Counted from the first letter of the stretch, positions 38,644 to 46,844 are shown. The stretch: 64,000 nt of DNA from Deltaproteobacteria bacterium (GCA_021815305.1 JAKAHC010000003.1:248001-312000), one strand, 5' to 3'. Translations and numbers: made by a program. The notes: generated by a model from the sequence alone, not told the origin.

Positions 38644-40698
38644 ATGCCGATTCCACGCATCAGGAGCACGCACAGGATGTTTCCGGCGGCCGTTCTTCTG
38701 ACAGCGTCGGTCCTGCTTTTCCTCCCGGGGGTCGCCTCCGCGCTCGATAACGGGCAATGCCTCGACTGCCACGGCGACCGTTCCGTCCTCGGCTGGTCGG
38801 CCGGGGAAAAAGCGTCCAACGTGACGCCGGGGGGACCGGAGGAACCCGGGCACGTCGCGGGGAATTTTCCCGGCATGTCCCTGTTCGTCGACGCCGAAGC
38901 GTACAGACGGTCCGTGCACGCGGACGTGTCCTGCACCGACTGCCATGCAGACATCAAGGATCTTCCGCACACCGCCAGGCTCAAGCACGTGAACTGCTCC
39001 GGGTGCCACTCCGAGGTGGCGGCCACGTATGCGAAGAGCCGGCACGTCCTCACCTTCGACGGGAAGCCGGTCGTCAATCCCCCCGCGTGCGTCGACTGCC
39101 ACGGGGCCCACGCCGTACCCAAATCGTCCCTCTCCACATCTCCGGTCTATTACCGCAACATCGCCGCGACGTGCACCCGGTGCCACGGGGACAAGAAGGT
39201 CACGGACAACCGGAACATCGCCATCCCGGGCGCGGCCAAGCTGTACACGCGGAGCATCCACAACCGGGCGATCGTCGAAATGGGGCTGAACAAGTCCGCG
39301 ACCTGCATCGACTGCCACGGCGCGCACAACATGAAGGACCGCAGGGACCCCGCCTCGTCCATCAACCGGACGAACCTCCCCGCCACCTGCGGGCGGTGCC
39401 ACTACGGGGTCTACGCCATCTACAAGGACAGCGTGCACGGGACGGCCCTGGCCCGCGGCGTTCCGGACGCCCCCAACTGCGCCGACTGCCACGGCGAACA
39501 CGAGGTCCTCGCCGTCAGCGATCCGAACTCGCCCGTCTCGGCCTCGGCGATCTCCCAGAGGACGTGTCCCTCCTGCCACGCGGCCGAGAAGCTGGCGGCG
39601 CGCTACGGGGTGCCGGTGGACAAGGTGCTCGGGTACCAGCAGAGCTTCCACGGCCTGTCCGCGCGTCTCGGGGACAAGACCGTGGCCAACTGCGCCTCCT
39701 GCCACGGCGACCACGCGATCTTCCCCTCCTCCGACCCGCGCTCGACGATCAACCCGAGGAACCTTCCCGTGACGTGCGGGAAGTGCCATCCCGGGGCCAC
39801 GGCGAACTTCGCCAAGGGGAACATCCACGTGGGGCCGGGCGGAACGGGCGGCCAGATCAAGTACTGGGTGGAGCGGGTCTACATCTGGATGATCGTCCTG
39901 GTGATCGGCGGGATGGTCCTCCACAACGGCCTGGACTACTTCCGGAAGATGCAGGCGCTCTACCGGCAGCGGCGGCAGTGGCGCCAGCCGGCGTACGAGC
40001 GGCTCAACCGTTCCGAGCGGATTCAGCACTTCCTGACGCTTGCGACCTTCTTTATCCTGGTGGTCACGGGGTTCGCGCTGAAATTCAAGTGGTCCGTACC
40101 ACTGATCTCCGACCAGGCCAACGTCGCGCTGCGGGGCTGGGGCCACCGGATCGCCGCCCTCGTCATGCTCGCCACCGGCGTCTACCACGTTTTCTACGTC
40201 GTGTTCACCGCCCGGGGCCGCGGCCATCTCTGGCGGATGCTCCCCCGGTGGAAGGACGTGGAGGACGTCGTGGGGACGATCCGGTACTTCCTCGGGATCG
40301 CCGACCACAAGCCCAGTTTCGACCGGTATACCTATGTGGAGAAGGCGGAATACCTCGCGCTGGTGTGGGGCACGGTCGTCATGGTCGTCACCGGCTTCCT
40401 GCTCTGGTTCCAGGACGAGGCGCTCCGGTACCTCCCGATGTGGGGGCTGGACGTGGCCACCATCGTGCACTTCTACGAGGCGGTCCTGGCCACCCTGGCC
40501 ATTCTCGTATGGCACCTCTACTACGTGTTCGTGAATCCGGATTTCGCCCCCATGTCGTTCACCTGGATCGACGGAAAGCTCTCCCGGCAGCTGATGGAGC
40601 ACGAACACGCCCTCGAGCTCGAGGAGATCGACGCGTACGAACGCCGCGGGGTGGAACCGCCCCCCGACGTCACCCGGATCGCCACGGAGGAGGAATGA
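38644..40698 (+). CDS. Fused multihaem cytochrome c (11 CxxCH) - membrane cytochrome b, CbcL-like
   Basis: A 684-residue protein with a signal peptide (to VASA) and 11 CxxCH motifs from CLDCH to CGKCH in a periplasmic region up to about residue 400. Then come five hydrophobic helices: one anchor (WMIVLVIGGMVLHNGL) and a four-helix b-type domain with candidate haem histidines in QHF-type, GHRIAALVM...YHVFY, VHFYEA and WHLYYVF segments. This is the architecture of Geobacter CbcL, which takes electrons from menaquinol. CbcL carries 9 c-haems; this has 11. It is first of six genes and overlaps the next by ATGA. Confidence 0.85.
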   Translation: MPIPRIRSTHRMFPAAVLLTASVLLFLPGVASALDNGQCLDCHGDRSVLGWSAGEKASNVTPGGPEEPGHVAGNFPGMSLFVDAEAYRRSVHADVSCTDCHADIKDLPHTARLKHVNCSGCHSEVAATYAKSRHVLTFDGKPVVNPPACVDCHGAHAVPKSSLSTSPVYYRNIAATCTRCHGDKKVTDNRNIAIPGAAKLYTRSIHNRAIVEMGLNKSATCIDCHGAHNMKDRRDPASSINRTNLPATCGRCHYGVYAIYKDSVHGTALARGVPDAPNCADCHGEHEVLAVSDPNSPVSASAISQRTCPSCHAAEKLAARYGVPVDKVLGYQQSFHGLSARLGDKTVANCASCHGDHAIFPSSDPRSTINPRNLPVTCGKCHPGATANFAKGNIHVGPGGTGGQIKYWVERVYIWMIVLVIGGMVLHNGLDYFRKMQALYRQRRQWRQPAYERLNRSERIQHFLTLATFFILVVTGFALKFKWSVPLISDQANVALRGWGHRIAALVMLATGVYHVFYVVFTARGRGHLWRMLPRWKDVEDVVGTIRYFLGIADHKPSFDRYTYVEKAEYLALVWGTVVMVVTGFLLWFQDEALRYLPMWGLDVATIVHFYEAVLATLAILVWHLYYVFVNPDFAPMSFTWIDGKLSRQLMEHEHALELEEIDAYERRGVEPPPDVTRIATEEE

Positions 40699-41966
40699 AG
40701 AGGATGATCCGCCACCATCTTGCCGCGGCCCTTGCCGGCGCGGCCCTGTTGTCGGCCGGGCTCGCCGCCGCGGCCGTCCCCCCGGGCGTCAACGACTGCC
40801 TGGAGTGCCACGGGGACAAATCGATCGAGAAGACGCTCCCCGGCGGGGGAACCCTCTCGCTCTACGTCGACCTGCAGGCGTACCGCCGGTCGGTCCACGG
40901 GAACAGCGGCTGCGCCACGTGCCATGTCGACGCCAAGGCCCCGCACGAAAAGCTCGGGAAAGTCTCGTGCGGCAGGTGCCACGCCGACGCAGCGAAGTCG
41001 TATGCGGGCAGCTCCCACGGGAAGCTCCGCGCGAAGGGGGTCACCGACGTCCCCGGCTGCGACGGGTGCCACGGGAAGCACGACATCCGGAAATCGGCGG
41101 ACCCCGCCTCCCGGACCTTCCGGCTCAACATCGCGGCGACCTGCCTGCGCTGCCACAAGGACCGGGCCATCGAGCAGAAGTACAACCTTCCGGACCAGAA
41201 AGTGATGATCGCCTACGAACAGAGCGTCCACGGGATGGCGTCGAGGAAGGCCGGCCTCACCGGAAGCGCGGTCTGCTCCGATTGCCACGGGAACCACGGC
41301 ATCCTTCCCGGCGACGACCCGAAGTCCGCCACCTTCCGTCAGAACATACCCACCCTGTGCGGGAAGTGCCACTCCGGGATCCTCGAAAAGTACGAGAGGA
41401 GCGTCCACGGGAAGGGGATGCGCGCCGGAATCGCGGAGTCCCCGGTGTGCACGGATTGCCACGGGGAGCACACGATTTCGAAGGTCAGCGACCCGAATTC
41501 TCCGGTGAGCGCGCGGAACATCCCGAAGACGTGCACGGGGTGCCACGACAAGGAAGCCATCTCCTCGCGGTATGCCCTCCCGAAGAAGCGGTTCTCTTCC
41601 TACATGGATTCGTTCCACGGGATCGCGGTGGAGTACGGCATGACGAAGGCGGCCAACTGCTCGTCCTGCCACGGGGTTCACGACATCCTGCCTTCCTCCG
41701 ATCCCGCCTCCTCCGTCAACAAGGCGAACCTGCCCAGGACTTGCGGGAAGTGCCACCCCAAGGCGGGGCCCAATTTCGCCAAGGGATCCGTGCACGTCGA
41801 GGTGACCGCGGCGAAGGCCCTGGGCGTCTTCGCGATCCGGATGTTCTACATCATCTTCATCTCCGCCCTGGTGGTCCTGTTCGTCCTTCACGTCGGGCTC
41901 GAACTGTACGGACGGTGGAGGGAGAAAAAGGAGGGGGCGTCGGGCGGAAAGGGAGGGGCGCAATGA
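40695..41966 (+). CDS. Membrane-anchored 11-haem cytochrome c
   Basis: A 423-residue protein: signal peptide (to AAA), 11 CxxCH motifs (CLECH, CATCH, CGRCH, CDGCH, CLRCH, CSDCH, CGKCH, CTDCH, CTGCH, CSSCH, CGKCH), and one C-terminal helix (FYIIFISALVVLFVLHVGLEL). The roughly 50-residue repeat S-x-HG...CxxCHG-x-H-x-I...DP-x-S...CxxCH is shared with the preceding and the 42655 proteins, so they are paralogues. It corresponds to the c half of the fused protein, its partner b half being the next gene, which overlaps by ATGA. It is anchored in the inner membrane with haems in the periplasm. Confidence 0.85.
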   Translation: MKRMIRHHLAAALAGAALLSAGLAAAAVPPGVNDCLECHGDKSIEKTLPGGGTLSLYVDLQAYRRSVHGNSGCATCHVDAKAPHEKLGKVSCGRCHADAAKSYAGSSHGKLRAKGVTDVPGCDGCHGKHDIRKSADPASRTFRLNIAATCLRCHKDRAIEQKYNLPDQKVMIAYEQSVHGMASRKAGLTGSAVCSDCHGNHGILPGDDPKSATFRQNIPTLCGKCHSGILEKYERSVHGKGMRAGIAESPVCTDCHGEHTISKVSDPNSPVSARNIPKTCTGCHDKEAISSRYALPKKRFSSYMDSFHGIAVEYGMTKAANCSSCHGVHDILPSSDPASSVNKANLPRTCGKCHPKAGPNFAKGSVHVEVTAAKALGVFAIRMFYIIFISALVVLFVLHVGLELYGRWREKKEGASGGKGGAQ

Positions 41967-42658
41967 GTCGGGCCGACCTGGCTGCCGGCAAGGTGATCCG
42001 GATGTCGCTGCGGTTCCGCCTGCAGCATTTCCTGCTGATGATGCTCCTCCTTGTGCTCGCCGTCACGGGGTTCGCCCTGATGTACCACGATAACGCCCTG
42101 GCGCAGGCGATCATCCGCATCGAGGGGGGGGTCCAGAACCGGGGCGTCGTCCACCGGATCGCCGCCGTCCTGCTGCTGGCGAACCTGGTGTACCACATCT
42201 TCTACATGCTCTTCTCCCGGGAAGGGAAGGCGGAGTTCCGCGAGCTGCTCGTCACGCGGCGGGACGTCGACGACTTCCTCCAGGCCCTGCGGTACAACCT
42301 GGGCACGGAGAAGGAGTACCCCCGGTTCGGGAAGTACGGGTACAGGGAGAAGTTCCAGTACTGGGGCGCCACGGTGGGGATCCTGCTCATCGGGTTCACC
42401 GGTTTCATGCTCTGGGCGGAAACCTTCTCCATGCGCTTCTTCCCGAAATTCATCCTCGACCTGGCGCTGATCATCCACGGGTACCAGGGGCTCCTGGGGT
42501 TCGTGCTCCTCTTCCTGTGGCACCTGTACAACGTGCACCTGCACCCCTCCGTGTTCCCGATGAATCCGGCCTGGCTCACCGGGAAAGTGTCGACGGAATG
42601 GCTGCGCAGGGAGCACCCGCTGGAATACGAAAAACTCAAAGGGGAAGGGTTGTTATGA
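41963..42658 (+). CDS. Membrane cytochrome b subunit (four-helix, b561/FdnI-like)
   Basis: A 231-residue four-helix protein. Candidate haem b ligands are the His residues in RLQHFLLMM, VVHRIAAVLL...VYHIFYM, IIHGYQ and LWHLYNVHLHP. The sequence parallels the C-terminal part of the fused protein at 38644. It starts and ends with ATGA overlaps, so it should be made stoichiometrically with the 11-haem subunit before it. Predicted role: menaquinol oxidation and transfer of electrons across the membrane to the c-haems. Confidence 0.82.
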   Translation: MSRADLAAGKVIRMSLRFRLQHFLLMMLLLVLAVTGFALMYHDNALAQAIIRIEGGVQNRGVVHRIAAVLLLANLVYHIFYMLFSREGKAEFRELLVTRRDVDDFLQALRYNLGTEKEYPRFGKYGYREKFQYWGATVGILLIGFTGFMLWAETFSMRFFPKFILDLALIIHGYQGLLGFVLLFLWHLYNVHLHPSVFPMNPAWLTGKVSTEWLRREHPLEYEKLKGEGLL

Positions 42659-43716
42659 GGAAGTTCCTCTTCGCGGTCGTCGTCTTCCTCGGGGGGGTGG
42701 TCCTTCCTGGTTTCGCGCGGGACGCCGGGGCCGCGATCTCCCTGGAGAAGTGCACGTTGTGCCACGGCAAGCCCGAGTTCCGCAAGCTGCTGGTCGACGG
42801 CGCCATCCGGGACCTCTTCGTCACGGGGGACAGCCTGAAAGGATCGGTGCACGAGAAGAAGGGATGCACGGACTGCCACTTCGACGTGAACGAGATCCCC
42901 CACCGGGAGCGTCCCAAGCGGGTGACCTGCACCCACTGCCACTACAAGGGGAACAGGGAGGGCGCTCCCCAGTCCGACAACGTCCTTGCGTACTTCGACT
43001 CGGCCCACGGCAAGGCGATCGCCGCAGGGAACGCGAAGGCTCCGCTGTGCCAGGACTGCCACGGCAGCCACCAGATCCTCAAGGTGAAGAATCCCGAATC
43101 GAAAGTGTCGCGTTTCAAGGTGGCCGAGACGTGCGGCCGGTGCCACATGGAAATCTACGCGAAGTACAAAACCTCCATCCACGGGGTCGCCCTTTCGAAG
43201 GGTATCGCGGACGCGCCTTCCTGCACGGGCTGCCACGGGGAGCACCGCATCTACGCCCACACCGATCCCAAGTCGACCGTCTACCCGACAAGGGTTTCCG
43301 AGCAGTGCTCCAAGTGCCATGCCTCGGTCGCCATCATGAGCAAGTTCGGCATCGAGACGGAGCAGGTCGCCACCTACAACGAATCCTTCCACGGCGTGGC
43401 CAGCAAGTTCGGCTCCCGCACCGTCGCGAACTGCGCATCGTGCCACGGGGTCCACGACATCCGCCCGCCGGACGACCCGCTCTCCACGGTGAACCCGAGG
43501 AATATCCCGAAGACGTGCGGGAAGTGCCACCCGGGCGCCAACGCGAACTTCGCCGTCGGGAAGATCCACGTGGACGCCAAGAAGAAGGAGTCGGGGATCA
43601 TCTACTGGACCGCGACCTTCTTCAAGTACCTCACCATCTGCACCATGCTCGCCCTCATCGTGCACATCTTCCTGGACATGTACGGCAGGACGCGCCGCCT
43701 CCGCGGAGAACGATGA
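42655..43716 (+). CDS. Membrane-anchored 9-haem cytochrome c
   Basis: A 353-residue protein with signal peptide (to GAA), nine CxxCH motifs (CTLCH, CTDCH, CTHCH, CQDCH, CGRCH, CTGCH, CSKCH, CASCH, CGKCH) and a C-terminal anchor helix (FKYLTICTMLALIVHIFL). It is a shorter paralogue of the 40695 protein and shares its last four haem repeats most clearly. With the next gene it forms the third c/b pair of the locus. Unlike the earlier junctions, the next start is 64 bp away. Confidence 0.85.
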   Translation: MRKFLFAVVVFLGGVVLPGFARDAGAAISLEKCTLCHGKPEFRKLLVDGAIRDLFVTGDSLKGSVHEKKGCTDCHFDVNEIPHRERPKRVTCTHCHYKGNREGAPQSDNVLAYFDSAHGKAIAAGNAKAPLCQDCHGSHQILKVKNPESKVSRFKVAETCGRCHMEIYAKYKTSIHGVALSKGIADAPSCTGCHGEHRIYAHTDPKSTVYPTRVSEQCSKCHASVAIMSKFGIETEQVATYNESFHGVASKFGSRTVANCASCHGVHDIRPPDDPLSTVNPRNIPKTCGKCHPGANANFAVGKIHVDAKKKESGIIYWTATFFKYLTICTMLALIVHIFLDMYGRTRRLRGER

Positions 43717-43780
43717 GGAAGGGGCGAGACTGTCCGGCGGGCGGGGCGGGAACACCCTCAAACCAAGACGATCGGGAGTC

Positions 43781-44704
43781 ATGAGAATGGCAGAGAAAGA
43801 CCAGCGGATCGCAGACGGGGAAGCCGTCGAGAAGGAAATCGAGGCGGCCCTTGCCGAGCGCCTTTCCGGGTTGCCGTCGGAGCAGGCCGACGCGGTGCGG
43901 GACAAGATCCGCCGCCGCGTCCAGGAAGAGGTGGAGAGGGAGCTTCGCATACGGGCCGCTTCGGACCGGAAGGAGGCGCGCGAGAAGGAGAAACAGGTCG
44001 AGGAGGGGGAGAAGTTCGTCCGGTTCAACCGGAACTTCCGTTTCCAGCACATGGTGATGTTCACCTCGGTCATCCTCCTGATCATCACCGGCATGCCGCT
44101 GAAGTTCCCCGATTTCGTCCTCTCCCGTTTCGTCATCGGCTTCTGGGGCGGGATACAGAACTCCACCATCGTCCACCGGATCGGCGCCGGGATGCTGATC
44201 TACTTCATGGTCCACCACTTCCTCTACACGGTCCTGACGCGGGACGGGCGGCGGGACTTTGTCCTCATGATCCCCGGCCTCAAGGACGCAAGGGACATCG
44301 CCCTGAACGTGCGGCACTTCCTCGGGAAGACGTCCGAGAGGCCCCGCTTCGGCAGGTTCAGCTACATCGAGAAGTTCGACTACTGGGCGGTGTACTGGGG
44401 CTGCGTCATCATGATCGGGTCCGGGCTGTTCCTGTGGTTCGAGACCGACGTCATGCAGTTCCTTCCCAAATACGCCATCGACATGGCCCACGAAATGCAC
44501 AGCGACGAGGCGCTCCTGGCCACCCTGGCGATCGTCATCTGGCACTTCTACAACGTCCACTTCAACCCGGACCGGTTCCCGGGGACGCTCCTGTGGTGGC
44601 ACGGCCGGCTCACGGAGCATGAGATGAAGGAAGAGCACCCCCTCGAATACGAGGAGATCATGGCGCGGCGCGCCGGAAAGCCGCCGGAGGTCGCCGGGCA
44701 ATGA
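43781..44704 (+). CDS. Membrane cytochrome b subunit with charged N-terminal extension
   Basis: A 307-residue relative of the 41963 b subunit. Residues 1-80 are extremely charged (Glu/Lys/Arg) and predicted to be a cytoplasmic coiled coil, absent from the other copies. The four-helix core keeps FQHMVMF, VHRIGAGML...VHHFLY, MAHEMHS and WHFYNVHFNP histidines. GGGAGTC precedes the ATG at 43781; a second in-frame ATG lies at 43787. Its stop overlaps the NapC-like gene by ATGA. Role as for the other b subunit, with the extension perhaps binding a cytoplasmic partner. Confidence 0.82.
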   Translation: MRMAEKDQRIADGEAVEKEIEAALAERLSGLPSEQADAVRDKIRRRVQEEVERELRIRAASDRKEAREKEKQVEEGEKFVRFNRNFRFQHMVMFTSVILLIITGMPLKFPDFVLSRFVIGFWGGIQNSTIVHRIGAGMLIYFMVHHFLYTVLTRDGRRDFVLMIPGLKDARDIALNVRHFLGKTSERPRFGRFSYIEKFDYWAVYWGCVIMIGSGLFLWFETDVMQFLPKYAIDMAHEMHSDEALLATLAIVIWHFYNVHFNPDRFPGTLLWWHGRLTEHEMKEEHPLEYEEIMARRAGKPPEVAGQ

Positions 44705-46761
44705 AGGAAAAACTCAAGGTCTGGTGGGAATTTCTCGGGGGGAGCAGGAGGCCGCTCGTCGTCGTCGCAGTGGTCGTCGCGGGACTGTTCATCGTCGTGA
44801 ACGGGGCGTTCTTCGTGGCCGCGTACTTCCCGAAGTCCTGCCGGGCTTGCCACTACATGGATCCCTACGTCGCCCAGTGGCAGGCGTCCAGCCACTCGAA
44901 CGTGACGTGCATCAAGTGCCATTCCTTCTCCCCCGTCTTCATCACGGTGACGACCCTCAAGTACATCACGGGCCTGTACAACCCGCGCCCGCACGCGAAC
45001 GTGCAGGACGCGGCGTGCCTCGCGAACGGATGCCACGAGGGACGGATCGCCAAGGGCAAGGCCAAGATGGGGAACATCACCTTCGACCACCAGGACCACC
45101 TGACCAAGCTCAAGCGGGGGGAGAAGCTGCGCTGCACCAGCTGCCACTACGCGATCGTCCAGGGCGAGAACATCGTCAAGGGTTCCCATACCCAGGTGGA
45201 CAACCGCGTCTGCTTCCTGTGCCACTTCAAGGGGATCGGGCCGGGGCAGGCCCTCGGCGGGTGCCCGGGATGTCACGGGACGCCCACCAGGACCGTGGAG
45301 CACAGCGGGTTCCTGTTCTCCCACGCCTCGTACCTGAAGATCGGCGTGCCGTGCATGCAGTGCCACGTGCGGGTGGCCGAGGGCGACGGGAAGGTGGACG
45401 ACGCCCACTGCTACGACTGCCACGTGGGCAGGCTCGAAAAGAAGGGCGACGTGCTGGGCATCCACCGCATCCACGTCACCTACAACGCGATCCAGTGCTT
45501 CAAGTGCCACGACAAGATCAACCACGGGGCGATCGAGTTCACCAAGACCTTCGAGGTCCAGTGCGACGCGTGCCACAAGAGGCTGCACAGCTACCAGAAG
45601 GAGATGTACATGGGCACGGGGGCCAAGGGGGTCCCCGACACGCCGTCCCGGATGTTCTCCGCGCAGGTTTCGTGCAACGGGTGCCACATCAAGTCCGTCG
45701 AGGTGAAGGAGTCGGGCGTTTCGTTCCCGGGCGAGACCAAGCTGGCGGCGGAGCGGCACAGCTGCGTGGTCTGCCACGGGAAGAAGTACGACCTGATGCT
45801 GGACGACTGGGTCCGCGAGTCCCGCAACCTCGTCGGCGACCTGGAGCGGATCGTCGCTTCGGGGAAAGCCGCGGTCGGTTCGGGTGCGGCGGCGGGAAGC
45901 AAGATGGCGCAGGCGAGGTCCCTCGTGGCCGACGCCCAGGCGAACCTGGATTTCCTCCGGGCGGGGCGGGGGGCGCACAACATCGAGTACGCCCTGAAGA
46001 TCGTGCGGGTGGGGTTCGAGCAGGTGACCACCGCGTACAGGCTGGCGGGAGTTCCGGGCGGTCCGCCCAGGCCAGCCATCCTCGCCAACTCCTCGGCGTT
46101 CTGCACCACCCTGTGCCACGCGCGCATCATGCCCCCAGACAAGGTGTTCTTCAAGGAGATGGAGCTCCAGTTCCCGCACTCCCTCCACGTGAAGGACGTG
46201 GGGATCGAATGCGCCAAGTGCCACTCCCCCGAGAAGCACAAGATGCGCATCGTGACCAAGTCCGAGTGCATGAAGTGCCACCACGAGAGCAAGGACATCG
46301 ACTGCGGCCACTGCCACAAGGCGCAGAAGGCCCTCTACGAGGGGAAGGTGAAGGTGTACGGGGTCGCGGCGGCGCCGGACGTGATGGCGGCCGCGGACAC
46401 CAAGTGCACCGATTGCCACGACCTGAAGAAGGGATCGCAGACGGTGCTCACCGTGAAGGCGAAGTGCGAGGAGTGCCACGACGCCAAACACGGAAAGATG
46501 CTGCTGGACTGGAAGGAGGAGATCACGAAGCGGGAGAACACCATCGCCGTGGCGCTCGAGGAGGCGAAAGCGTACGTCGACCGCGTGAAGAAGTCGGGGA
46601 AGGACGTCTCGAAGGAGCAGGCGCTGGTCGAGCAGGCGGACGCGAACTACCAGGTGGTCTCCTCCGGCCGGGGAACCCACAACTTCAGGCTCAGCAGGGA
46701 ACTGCTGAAGGTGGCGCAGTCCAACATCGACAAGGTGCTCGCCGCCAAGCGAGGAAAGTAG
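44701..46761 (+). CDS. NapC-like large multihaem cytochrome, 16 CxxCH plus CX4CH and CX3CH
   Basis: A 686-residue protein with an uncleaved N-terminal anchor (VVVAVVVAGLFIVVNGAFFV) followed by CRACH and HYMDPYVAQW, as in NapC/NirT quinol dehydrogenases. It has 16 CxxCH motifs plus CLANGCH (CX4CH, Cys106) and CTTLCH (CX3CH, Cys468). Two haem-free helical insertions (about residues 370-450 and 600-686) each contain the motif GRG-[AT]-HN, suggesting an internal duplication. It is last in the operon and ends ahead of a terminator. It likely collects electrons from the membrane subunits in the periplasm; exact homologues cannot be named. Confidence 0.83.
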   Translation: MKEKLKVWWEFLGGSRRPLVVVAVVVAGLFIVVNGAFFVAAYFPKSCRACHYMDPYVAQWQASSHSNVTCIKCHSFSPVFITVTTLKYITGLYNPRPHANVQDAACLANGCHEGRIAKGKAKMGNITFDHQDHLTKLKRGEKLRCTSCHYAIVQGENIVKGSHTQVDNRVCFLCHFKGIGPGQALGGCPGCHGTPTRTVEHSGFLFSHASYLKIGVPCMQCHVRVAEGDGKVDDAHCYDCHVGRLEKKGDVLGIHRIHVTYNAIQCFKCHDKINHGAIEFTKTFEVQCDACHKRLHSYQKEMYMGTGAKGVPDTPSRMFSAQVSCNGCHIKSVEVKESGVSFPGETKLAAERHSCVVCHGKKYDLMLDDWVRESRNLVGDLERIVASGKAAVGSGAAAGSKMAQARSLVADAQANLDFLRAGRGAHNIEYALKIVRVGFEQVTTAYRLAGVPGGPPRPAILANSSAFCTTLCHARIMPPDKVFFKEMELQFPHSLHVKDVGIECAKCHSPEKHKMRIVTKSECMKCHHESKDIDCGHCHKAQKALYEGKVKVYGVAAAPDVMAAADTKCTDCHDLKKGSQTVLTVKAKCEECHDAKHGKMLLDWKEEITKRENTIAVALEEAKAYVDRVKKSGKDVSKEQALVEQADANYQVVSSGRGTHNFRLSRELLKVAQSNIDKVLAAKRGK

Positions 46762-46804: not shown

Positions 46805-46844
46805 GCGTGCCGGGGGGCGAAGGAGCCTCCCGGCACGCTTTCTT
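46805..46844 (+). terminator. Terminator of the cytochrome operon
   Basis: A perfect 10-bp stem (GCGTGCCGGG/CCCGGCACGC, 46805-46814 and 46829-46838) with a 14-nt loop is followed by TTTCTT. It lies 43 bp after the last cytochrome stop. Confidence 0.75.

Follow-up and report, generated by a model that had tools for sequence, protein, structure and literature searches.

What is the function of a locus in which fused and split forms of one cytochrome module lie in a row? This question is raised by positions 38,644 to 46,761 of a 64,000-nucleotide stretch of DNA (the window) from Deltaproteobacteria bacterium (GCA_021815305.1, JAKAHC010000003.1:248001-312000), where reading of the open reading frames identified six genes, all on the + strand, in the order A-Bc-Bb-Cc-Cb-N. 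Gene A and the pairs Bc-Bb and Cc-Cb represent three units, each uniting a multihaem cytochrome c with a cytochrome b, and N encodes a further multihaem protein. The locus is a variant of the kind typified by CbcL and CbcBA of Geobacter; it is real, conserved and has in part been described already. On balance, we consider it probable that the six genes form one operon for membrane-bound quinol:periplasmic-cytochrome electron export, in which three CbcL/CbcBA-type units act with N.

Gene layout and the shared c-anchor-b architecture

The features of the locus are as follows.

38644..40698, + strand: gene A, 684 aa; 11 CxxCH; fused c + anchor + b
40695..41966, + strand: gene Bc, 11-haem c protein (11 CxxCH); signal and C-terminal anchor helix
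41963..42658, + strand: gene Bb, four-helix cytochrome b; 0 CxxCH; His 22, 64, 172, 187
42655..43716, + strand: gene Cc, 9-haem c protein (9 CxxCH); signal and C-terminal anchor helix
43781..44704, + strand: gene Cb, cytochrome b; 0 CxxCH; His 90, 132, 240, 255
44701..46761, + strand: gene N, 686 aa; 16 CxxCH; N-terminal membrane helix; 18 c-haem sites
46805..46838, + strand: terminator-like hairpin, 14 pairs, 12 of them G-C, then a T-rich tail; 44 bases 3' of N

All six reading frames begin where a preliminary description of this DNA had placed them, and the canonical CxxCH motifs total 47 (11+11+9+16), as it had counted. ATGA overlaps link neighbouring genes at A/Bc, Bc/Bb, Bb/Cc and Cb/N; the remaining junction, Cc to Cb, has a gap of 64 bases instead.

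Hydropathy and an AlphaFold model (mean predicted local distance difference test score, pLDDT, 77) give protein A a signal helix, a long anchor helix and four membrane helices, arranged as an 11-haem c domain (residues 1-395), the anchor (401-444) and a four-helix b domain (456-630). When the split proteins are joined, A aligns with both pairs from end to end: with Bc+Bb across 636 positions at 40% identity (score 1197; highest shuffled score 21) and with Cc+Cb across 579 positions at 41% identity (score 999; highest shuffled score 18). The earlier proposal that the fused protein is c, anchor and b read through is therefore borne out, and all three units repeat a single architecture. The c domain of A (residues 130-400) also resembles hydroxylamine oxidoreductase (Z ~8, 22% identity). 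This value lies within the common range and we do not accept such a function; the likeness may reflect only common multihaem packing in the model.

All three b parts match the prokaryotic cytochrome b561/FdnI family (PF01292) at 62.3 (A), 52.0 (Bb) and 45.8 bits (Cb), above the curated cut-off of 30.1. Across 138 b domains covering all three classes, four histidines show 99-100% conservation, and in gene A the corresponding candidate ligands for haem b are H462, H501, H609 and H624. Four such residues per b part are what would be expected for two b haems each, predicting about six in all. The best match of the A b domain in both fold and sequence is FdnI (1kqf_C; Z 10.0, root-mean-square deviation (rmsd) 3.1, 169 residues; profile E 9e-16), the quinone-reducing gamma subunit of E. 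coli formate dehydrogenase-N; di-haem b subunits of this type trade electrons with menaquinone. The partners differ, however: FdnI serves an Fe-S/Mo enzyme, whereas the b parts here are paired with multihaem c proteins. A glutamate near the third b histidine is conserved in A (E612) and C (E243) and is often absent from B (Q175 here; E in 15 of 35 sequences). As this residue is not kept reliably in B, that unit may differ in function from A and C.

Cb additionally carries a charged, helical N-terminal extension of ~75 aa (residues 1-75, 43781-44010) that is kept in many phyla, with no counterpart matched in Neomarinimicrobiota-type relatives.

Conservation and history of the locus

A search with Cb as the query covered 58 relatives and the window's own genome, and the regions that it pointed to were read. 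Of 24 same-family genomes, the window's own included, 10 have the complete A-Bc-Bb-Cc-Cb-N within a single contig, and eight more carry the same order whole or in part, broken by contig ends or frameshifts, giving 18 of 24 overall. Three further family members have an A-type gene alone at the loci read (G001, G011, G016), and the search returned no match in another three (G018, G021 and G022, the last with a completeness of 61%). All six genes occur in one genome of the sister family, and Cc-Cb-N alone in another.

Beyond these families, the core (Bc)-Bb-Cc-Cb-N occurs in metagenome-assembled genomes (MAGs) labelled as at least ten phyla, the labels being those of the submitters and some MAGs possibly mixed. 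All or most of (Bc or fused A)-Bb-Cc-Cb-N was read in Zixibacteria (L099), Calditrichota (L104), Schekmanbacteria (L108), Fischerbacteria (L110), Acidobacteriota/Aminicenantes (L111, L112, L121, L122), Kryptoniota (L114, L117, L118), Bacteroidota (L123), Ignavibacteriota (L134), WOR-3/Hydrothermus (L120, L125), Thermodesulfobacteriota (L102, L106) and Poribacteria (L095). Indeed, Schekmanbacteria L108 and Acidobacteria L121 hold all six genes in the order of the window. Bc is missing in Kryptonia, Bacteroidota and L109, where fused A lies immediately 5' of Bb, and Ignavibacteria have even A in split form (c18, Ab, Bb). The ATGA overlaps also recur across phyla (Bb/Cc in 26 of 46, Cb/N in 24 of 41), and the B pair is nearly always accompanied by the C pair. 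A gene order peculiar to this contig, which the preliminary description had set against a unified module, is thus not what the genomes contain. Because the Pfam scores exceed curated cut-offs and the order recurs in other phyla, the six-gene pattern lies far beyond chance.

The two halves of the units share a history. A tree of 138 b parts resolves each of the classes A, B and C as what is in essence a single cross-phylum group, with 6 label changes in total against a shuffle mean of 59; row labels were taken from the best BLAST hit, so that the label counts are not independent, while the topology is. A tree of 122 c parts recovers the same three classes and joins A with B to the exclusion of C (support 98). 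The outcome in which b and c parts are unrelated, likewise raised beforehand against a unified module, did not arise. Since the two trees are congruent, both the triplication and the b/c pairing are older than the spread across phyla; as far as the trees tell, A, B and C are ancient paralogues whose b and c parts have long been paired.

Two simpler accounts of the fusion were rejected. Fused A did not originate from the neighbouring B or C pair, as it forms its own cross-phylum clade. Nor was there a single fusion origin: one all-fused clade was rejected by an approximately unbiased test (AU p = 0.0002) and ~8 state changes were counted on the b tree, a test made on quickly built trees in which some branches are long. 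In the b and c trees, built without a named CbcL sequence, the unnamed 9-haem fused CbcL-like proteins of the phylum do not belong to the A clade; the b tree places them with C.

Several observations accompany these relatives. A 9-haem fused CbcL-like gene lies near a 16-haem relative of N in L074 (4786-10022) and L159 (8747-14271), and within a few kb of an N relative in L149, L150, L152 and L157; this proximity suggests, as a lead, that CbcL-N is a fused counterpart of Cc-Cb-N. In Armatimonadota (L113, L115, L116), Cc-Cb (and Bc-Bb) stands beside 28-32-haem proteins in place of N. Several relatives have a further pair of genes next to the locus, for an N-like protein with 11 haems and a c protein with 9, just 3' of N on the opposite strand in L048, L049, L061, L085 and L088 and on the same strand in L063/L105.

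In the window, two genes flank the block: one for ribonucleotide reductase, divergent from it, and one for a DNA methylase, convergent with it. The latter (PF01555; 47183-48166, - strand) lies directly 3' of the operon, has a G+C of 0.56 against ~0.65 and, from this low-G+C patch, is probably a recent arrival. The terminator-like hairpin at 46805-46838, which would close the operon, has the strongest stem of 7 such sites in the region (5.7 expected in shuffles). No promoter was identified for the operon, the sole sigma-70-like site of the region being on the minus strand.

The 18-haem protein N

N had been called NapC-like, a description that holds for its first ~90 residues and fails for the remainder. 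Residues 18-91 are NrfH-like, and the matches to PF03264 (NapC/NirT; 16.0 against a cut-off of 24.1) and TIGR03153 (NrfH; 36.8 against 134.2) fall below threshold and are confined to this region. Here an N-terminal transmembrane helix is followed by C-x2-C-H-x-M...W..S.H....C-x2-C-H, a motif kept in most of 35 homologues. A family profile accordingly matches NrfH at the start (E 4e-13) and OcwA in the middle (E 1e-24). In the predicted structure (mean pLDDT 75), residues 534-686 match OcwA (Z 12.5, rmsd 2.3, 130 residues), MccA (Z 11.7) and NrfA-type reductases (NrfA, Z ~9), with 130-142 residues across the matches, and the body also matches octahaem nitrite reductases. Furthermore, approximately residues 233-449 and 464-683 constitute a duplicated multihaem and helical-bundle module (hhalign E 4e-37). 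Rather than simply NapC-like, N is thus predicted from sequence and model to be an inner-membrane-anchored, NrfH-started, OcwA/NrfA-like multihaem protein. It is distinguished from NrfH and from OcwA/NrfA as a single 686-aa chain with 18 haems, a doubled body and no CxxCK catalytic haem of the NrfA kind: every one of its 18 sites ends in CH and is conserved.

Two of these sites are noncanonical, a CX4CH at residue 106 and a CX3CH at 468. Both are invariant in the 35 homologues and the first reads CX2CH in several phyla, so that 18, the number originally proposed, is the best count for N. The predicted complement of the locus is therefore 49 c-haem sites and 6 b haems. A profile of N, run against 198 genomes sampled from the phylum, found relatives in 32; the same kind of search found no second relative in the window's own genome.

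Relation to known systems and proposed function

CbcL, in which a di-haem b domain is combined with nine c haems, is required by Geobacter for respiration at low potential (PMC9129911). Together with MtrH and MtoC (Geobacter, Rhodoferax, Dechloromonas) it shares with A an N-terminal multihaem c region and a C-terminal di-haem b membrane domain. Members of that family have 3-23 CX2CH motifs and about six hydrophobic segments; A, with 11 CxxCH, a signal, an anchor and four b helices, conforms, as do its four b-haem histidines to the conserved membrane histidines of the family. In contrast to CbcL, a single gene with 9 c haems, fused A has 11 and lies beside two split units. Split b and c genes are found, as here, in the inner-membrane cytochrome clusters CbcBA and Cbc3/4/5/6 of Geobacter; these have other partners, and the available portions of their accounts, from which the comparison was made by description only, report no triple array.

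The closest precedent is "cluster 1" of the MBNT15 genome SHF-111 (Ca. Deferrimicrobium borealis), published in 2022, which comprises four genes for multihaem c proteins of 9-16 haems together with two for four-transmembrane cytochromes b; electron transfer from the quinone pool to the periplasm is proposed for it (PMC9386147). Cluster 1 very probably corresponds to this locus in the genome of a relative. The match, along with such close relatives as CSP1-8 and FeB_35, leads us to infer that the window genome belongs within MBNT15. The preliminary suggestion that the locus is undescribed can therefore stand only in part. Its make-up matches cluster 1, while the three-unit paralogy and the cross-phylum order seem to be new: the portion of the SHF-111 account that could be consulted mentions neither a c-b fusion nor paralogy among three units, and neither the spread across phyla nor an NrfH-like anchor, no account of the paralogy or order was found in the open-licence literature, and the accessible part of the Caldithrix abyssi paper describes no such locus.

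The retained gene order, the paired trees, the conserved candidate ligands for b haem, the FdnI fold and the parallels with CbcL and MBNT15 together favour an electron export system. Each four-helix, two-haem cytochrome b would take electrons from menaquinol and donate them to the c domain of its own unit, which is anchored in the membrane, carries 9-11 haems and faces the periplasm. N, which a single membrane helix holds in place, would most likely gather electrons from one or more of the units, or from quinol itself, and pass them to periplasmic carriers and onward to extracellular acceptors such as Fe(III). The quinol donor, the direction of flow, assembly as a single complex and Fe(III) as the end point are what we infer for this scheme. 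Several points weigh against it. No MtrB/PioB porin (PF11854) was matched in the window's own genome, which is 97% complete, leaving the outer-membrane step without a candidate. N, with its NrfA/OcwA features, could serve as a reductase and not as a wire; because A alone, or Cc-Cb-N alone, is carried by some genomes, the six genes need not act as a unit; and since FdnI works as a quinone-reducing subunit, the direction could be reversed.

It is possible, though we think it somewhat unlikely, that each of the three units is a quinol oxidoreductase in its own right, working at a potential different from the others, like CbcL, CbcBA and ImcH in Geobacter, and that they merely share an operon without forming a supercomplex. 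The genomes with A alone, those with Cc-Cb-N and neither A nor B (G025, G055), the presence of fused and split forms side by side and the frequent loss in B of the glutamate after the third histidine, hinting at other chemistry, all lend themselves to this account; strict order and translational coupling kept across phyla, and a B pair almost never without the C pair, do not. More doubtful is a self-contained respiratory reductase in which the b/c units feed N as the terminal enzyme for nitrite, sulfite, metal or another acceptor. The resemblance of the body of N to OcwA, MccA, octahaem nitrite reductases and NrfA would suit such a role, and its NrfH-like start echoes the NrfHA arrangement; nevertheless, its uniformly CH-ended, conserved sites provide no CxxCK catalytic haem.

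Reverse flow, in which electrons are taken up from the periplasm or outside and quinone is reduced, appears improbable. The FdnI-like b fold would accommodate it. MtoC relatives are present in Fe(II) oxidisers (PMC6295460), yet the MBNT15 group is reconstructed as heterotrophic with Fe(III) respiration (PMC9386147). Least credible of all, and in our view very unlikely, is N as an outer-membrane, MtrA-like terminal Fe(III) reductase. This follows the outer-membrane placement published for the SHF-111 16-haem protein, which is based on 24% identity to MtrA and hematite-type S/T-P-S/T motifs (PMC9386147). In N, however, an uncleaved-looking N-terminal membrane helix leads immediately into an NrfH-type CxxCHxM haem, the TPS at 314-316 overlaps a PSRMF element around the invariant P315 and need not bind mineral, and the genome offers no matched porin of the MtrB family. 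Inner-membrane anchoring would fit the sequence better than the placing published for the SHF-111 protein.

Within the favoured export reading, conserved order and ATGA coupling fit a supercomplex and fit co-regulated separate enzymes as well. It is tempting to speculate, with considerable doubt, that three ancient, functionally distinct b/c arms and an NrfH-OcwA-like 18-haem hub form a widespread, hitherto uncharacterised respiratory supercomplex of ~55 haems, whose arms work at different potentials (or with one opposed) and thereby tune or split the flow to extracellular acceptors.

As changes between fused (CbcL-like) and split (CbcBA-like) forms are recurrent, a search confined to homologues of CbcL overlooks much of the family. 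The known routes by which extracellular respiration draws on the quinol pool are a few systems of one or two genes, in Geobacter and Shewanella, and the arrangement here is far larger. Three b/c paralogues with an 18-haem anchored cytochrome provide a marker for such respiration beyond model organisms, among carriers many of which are uncultured.

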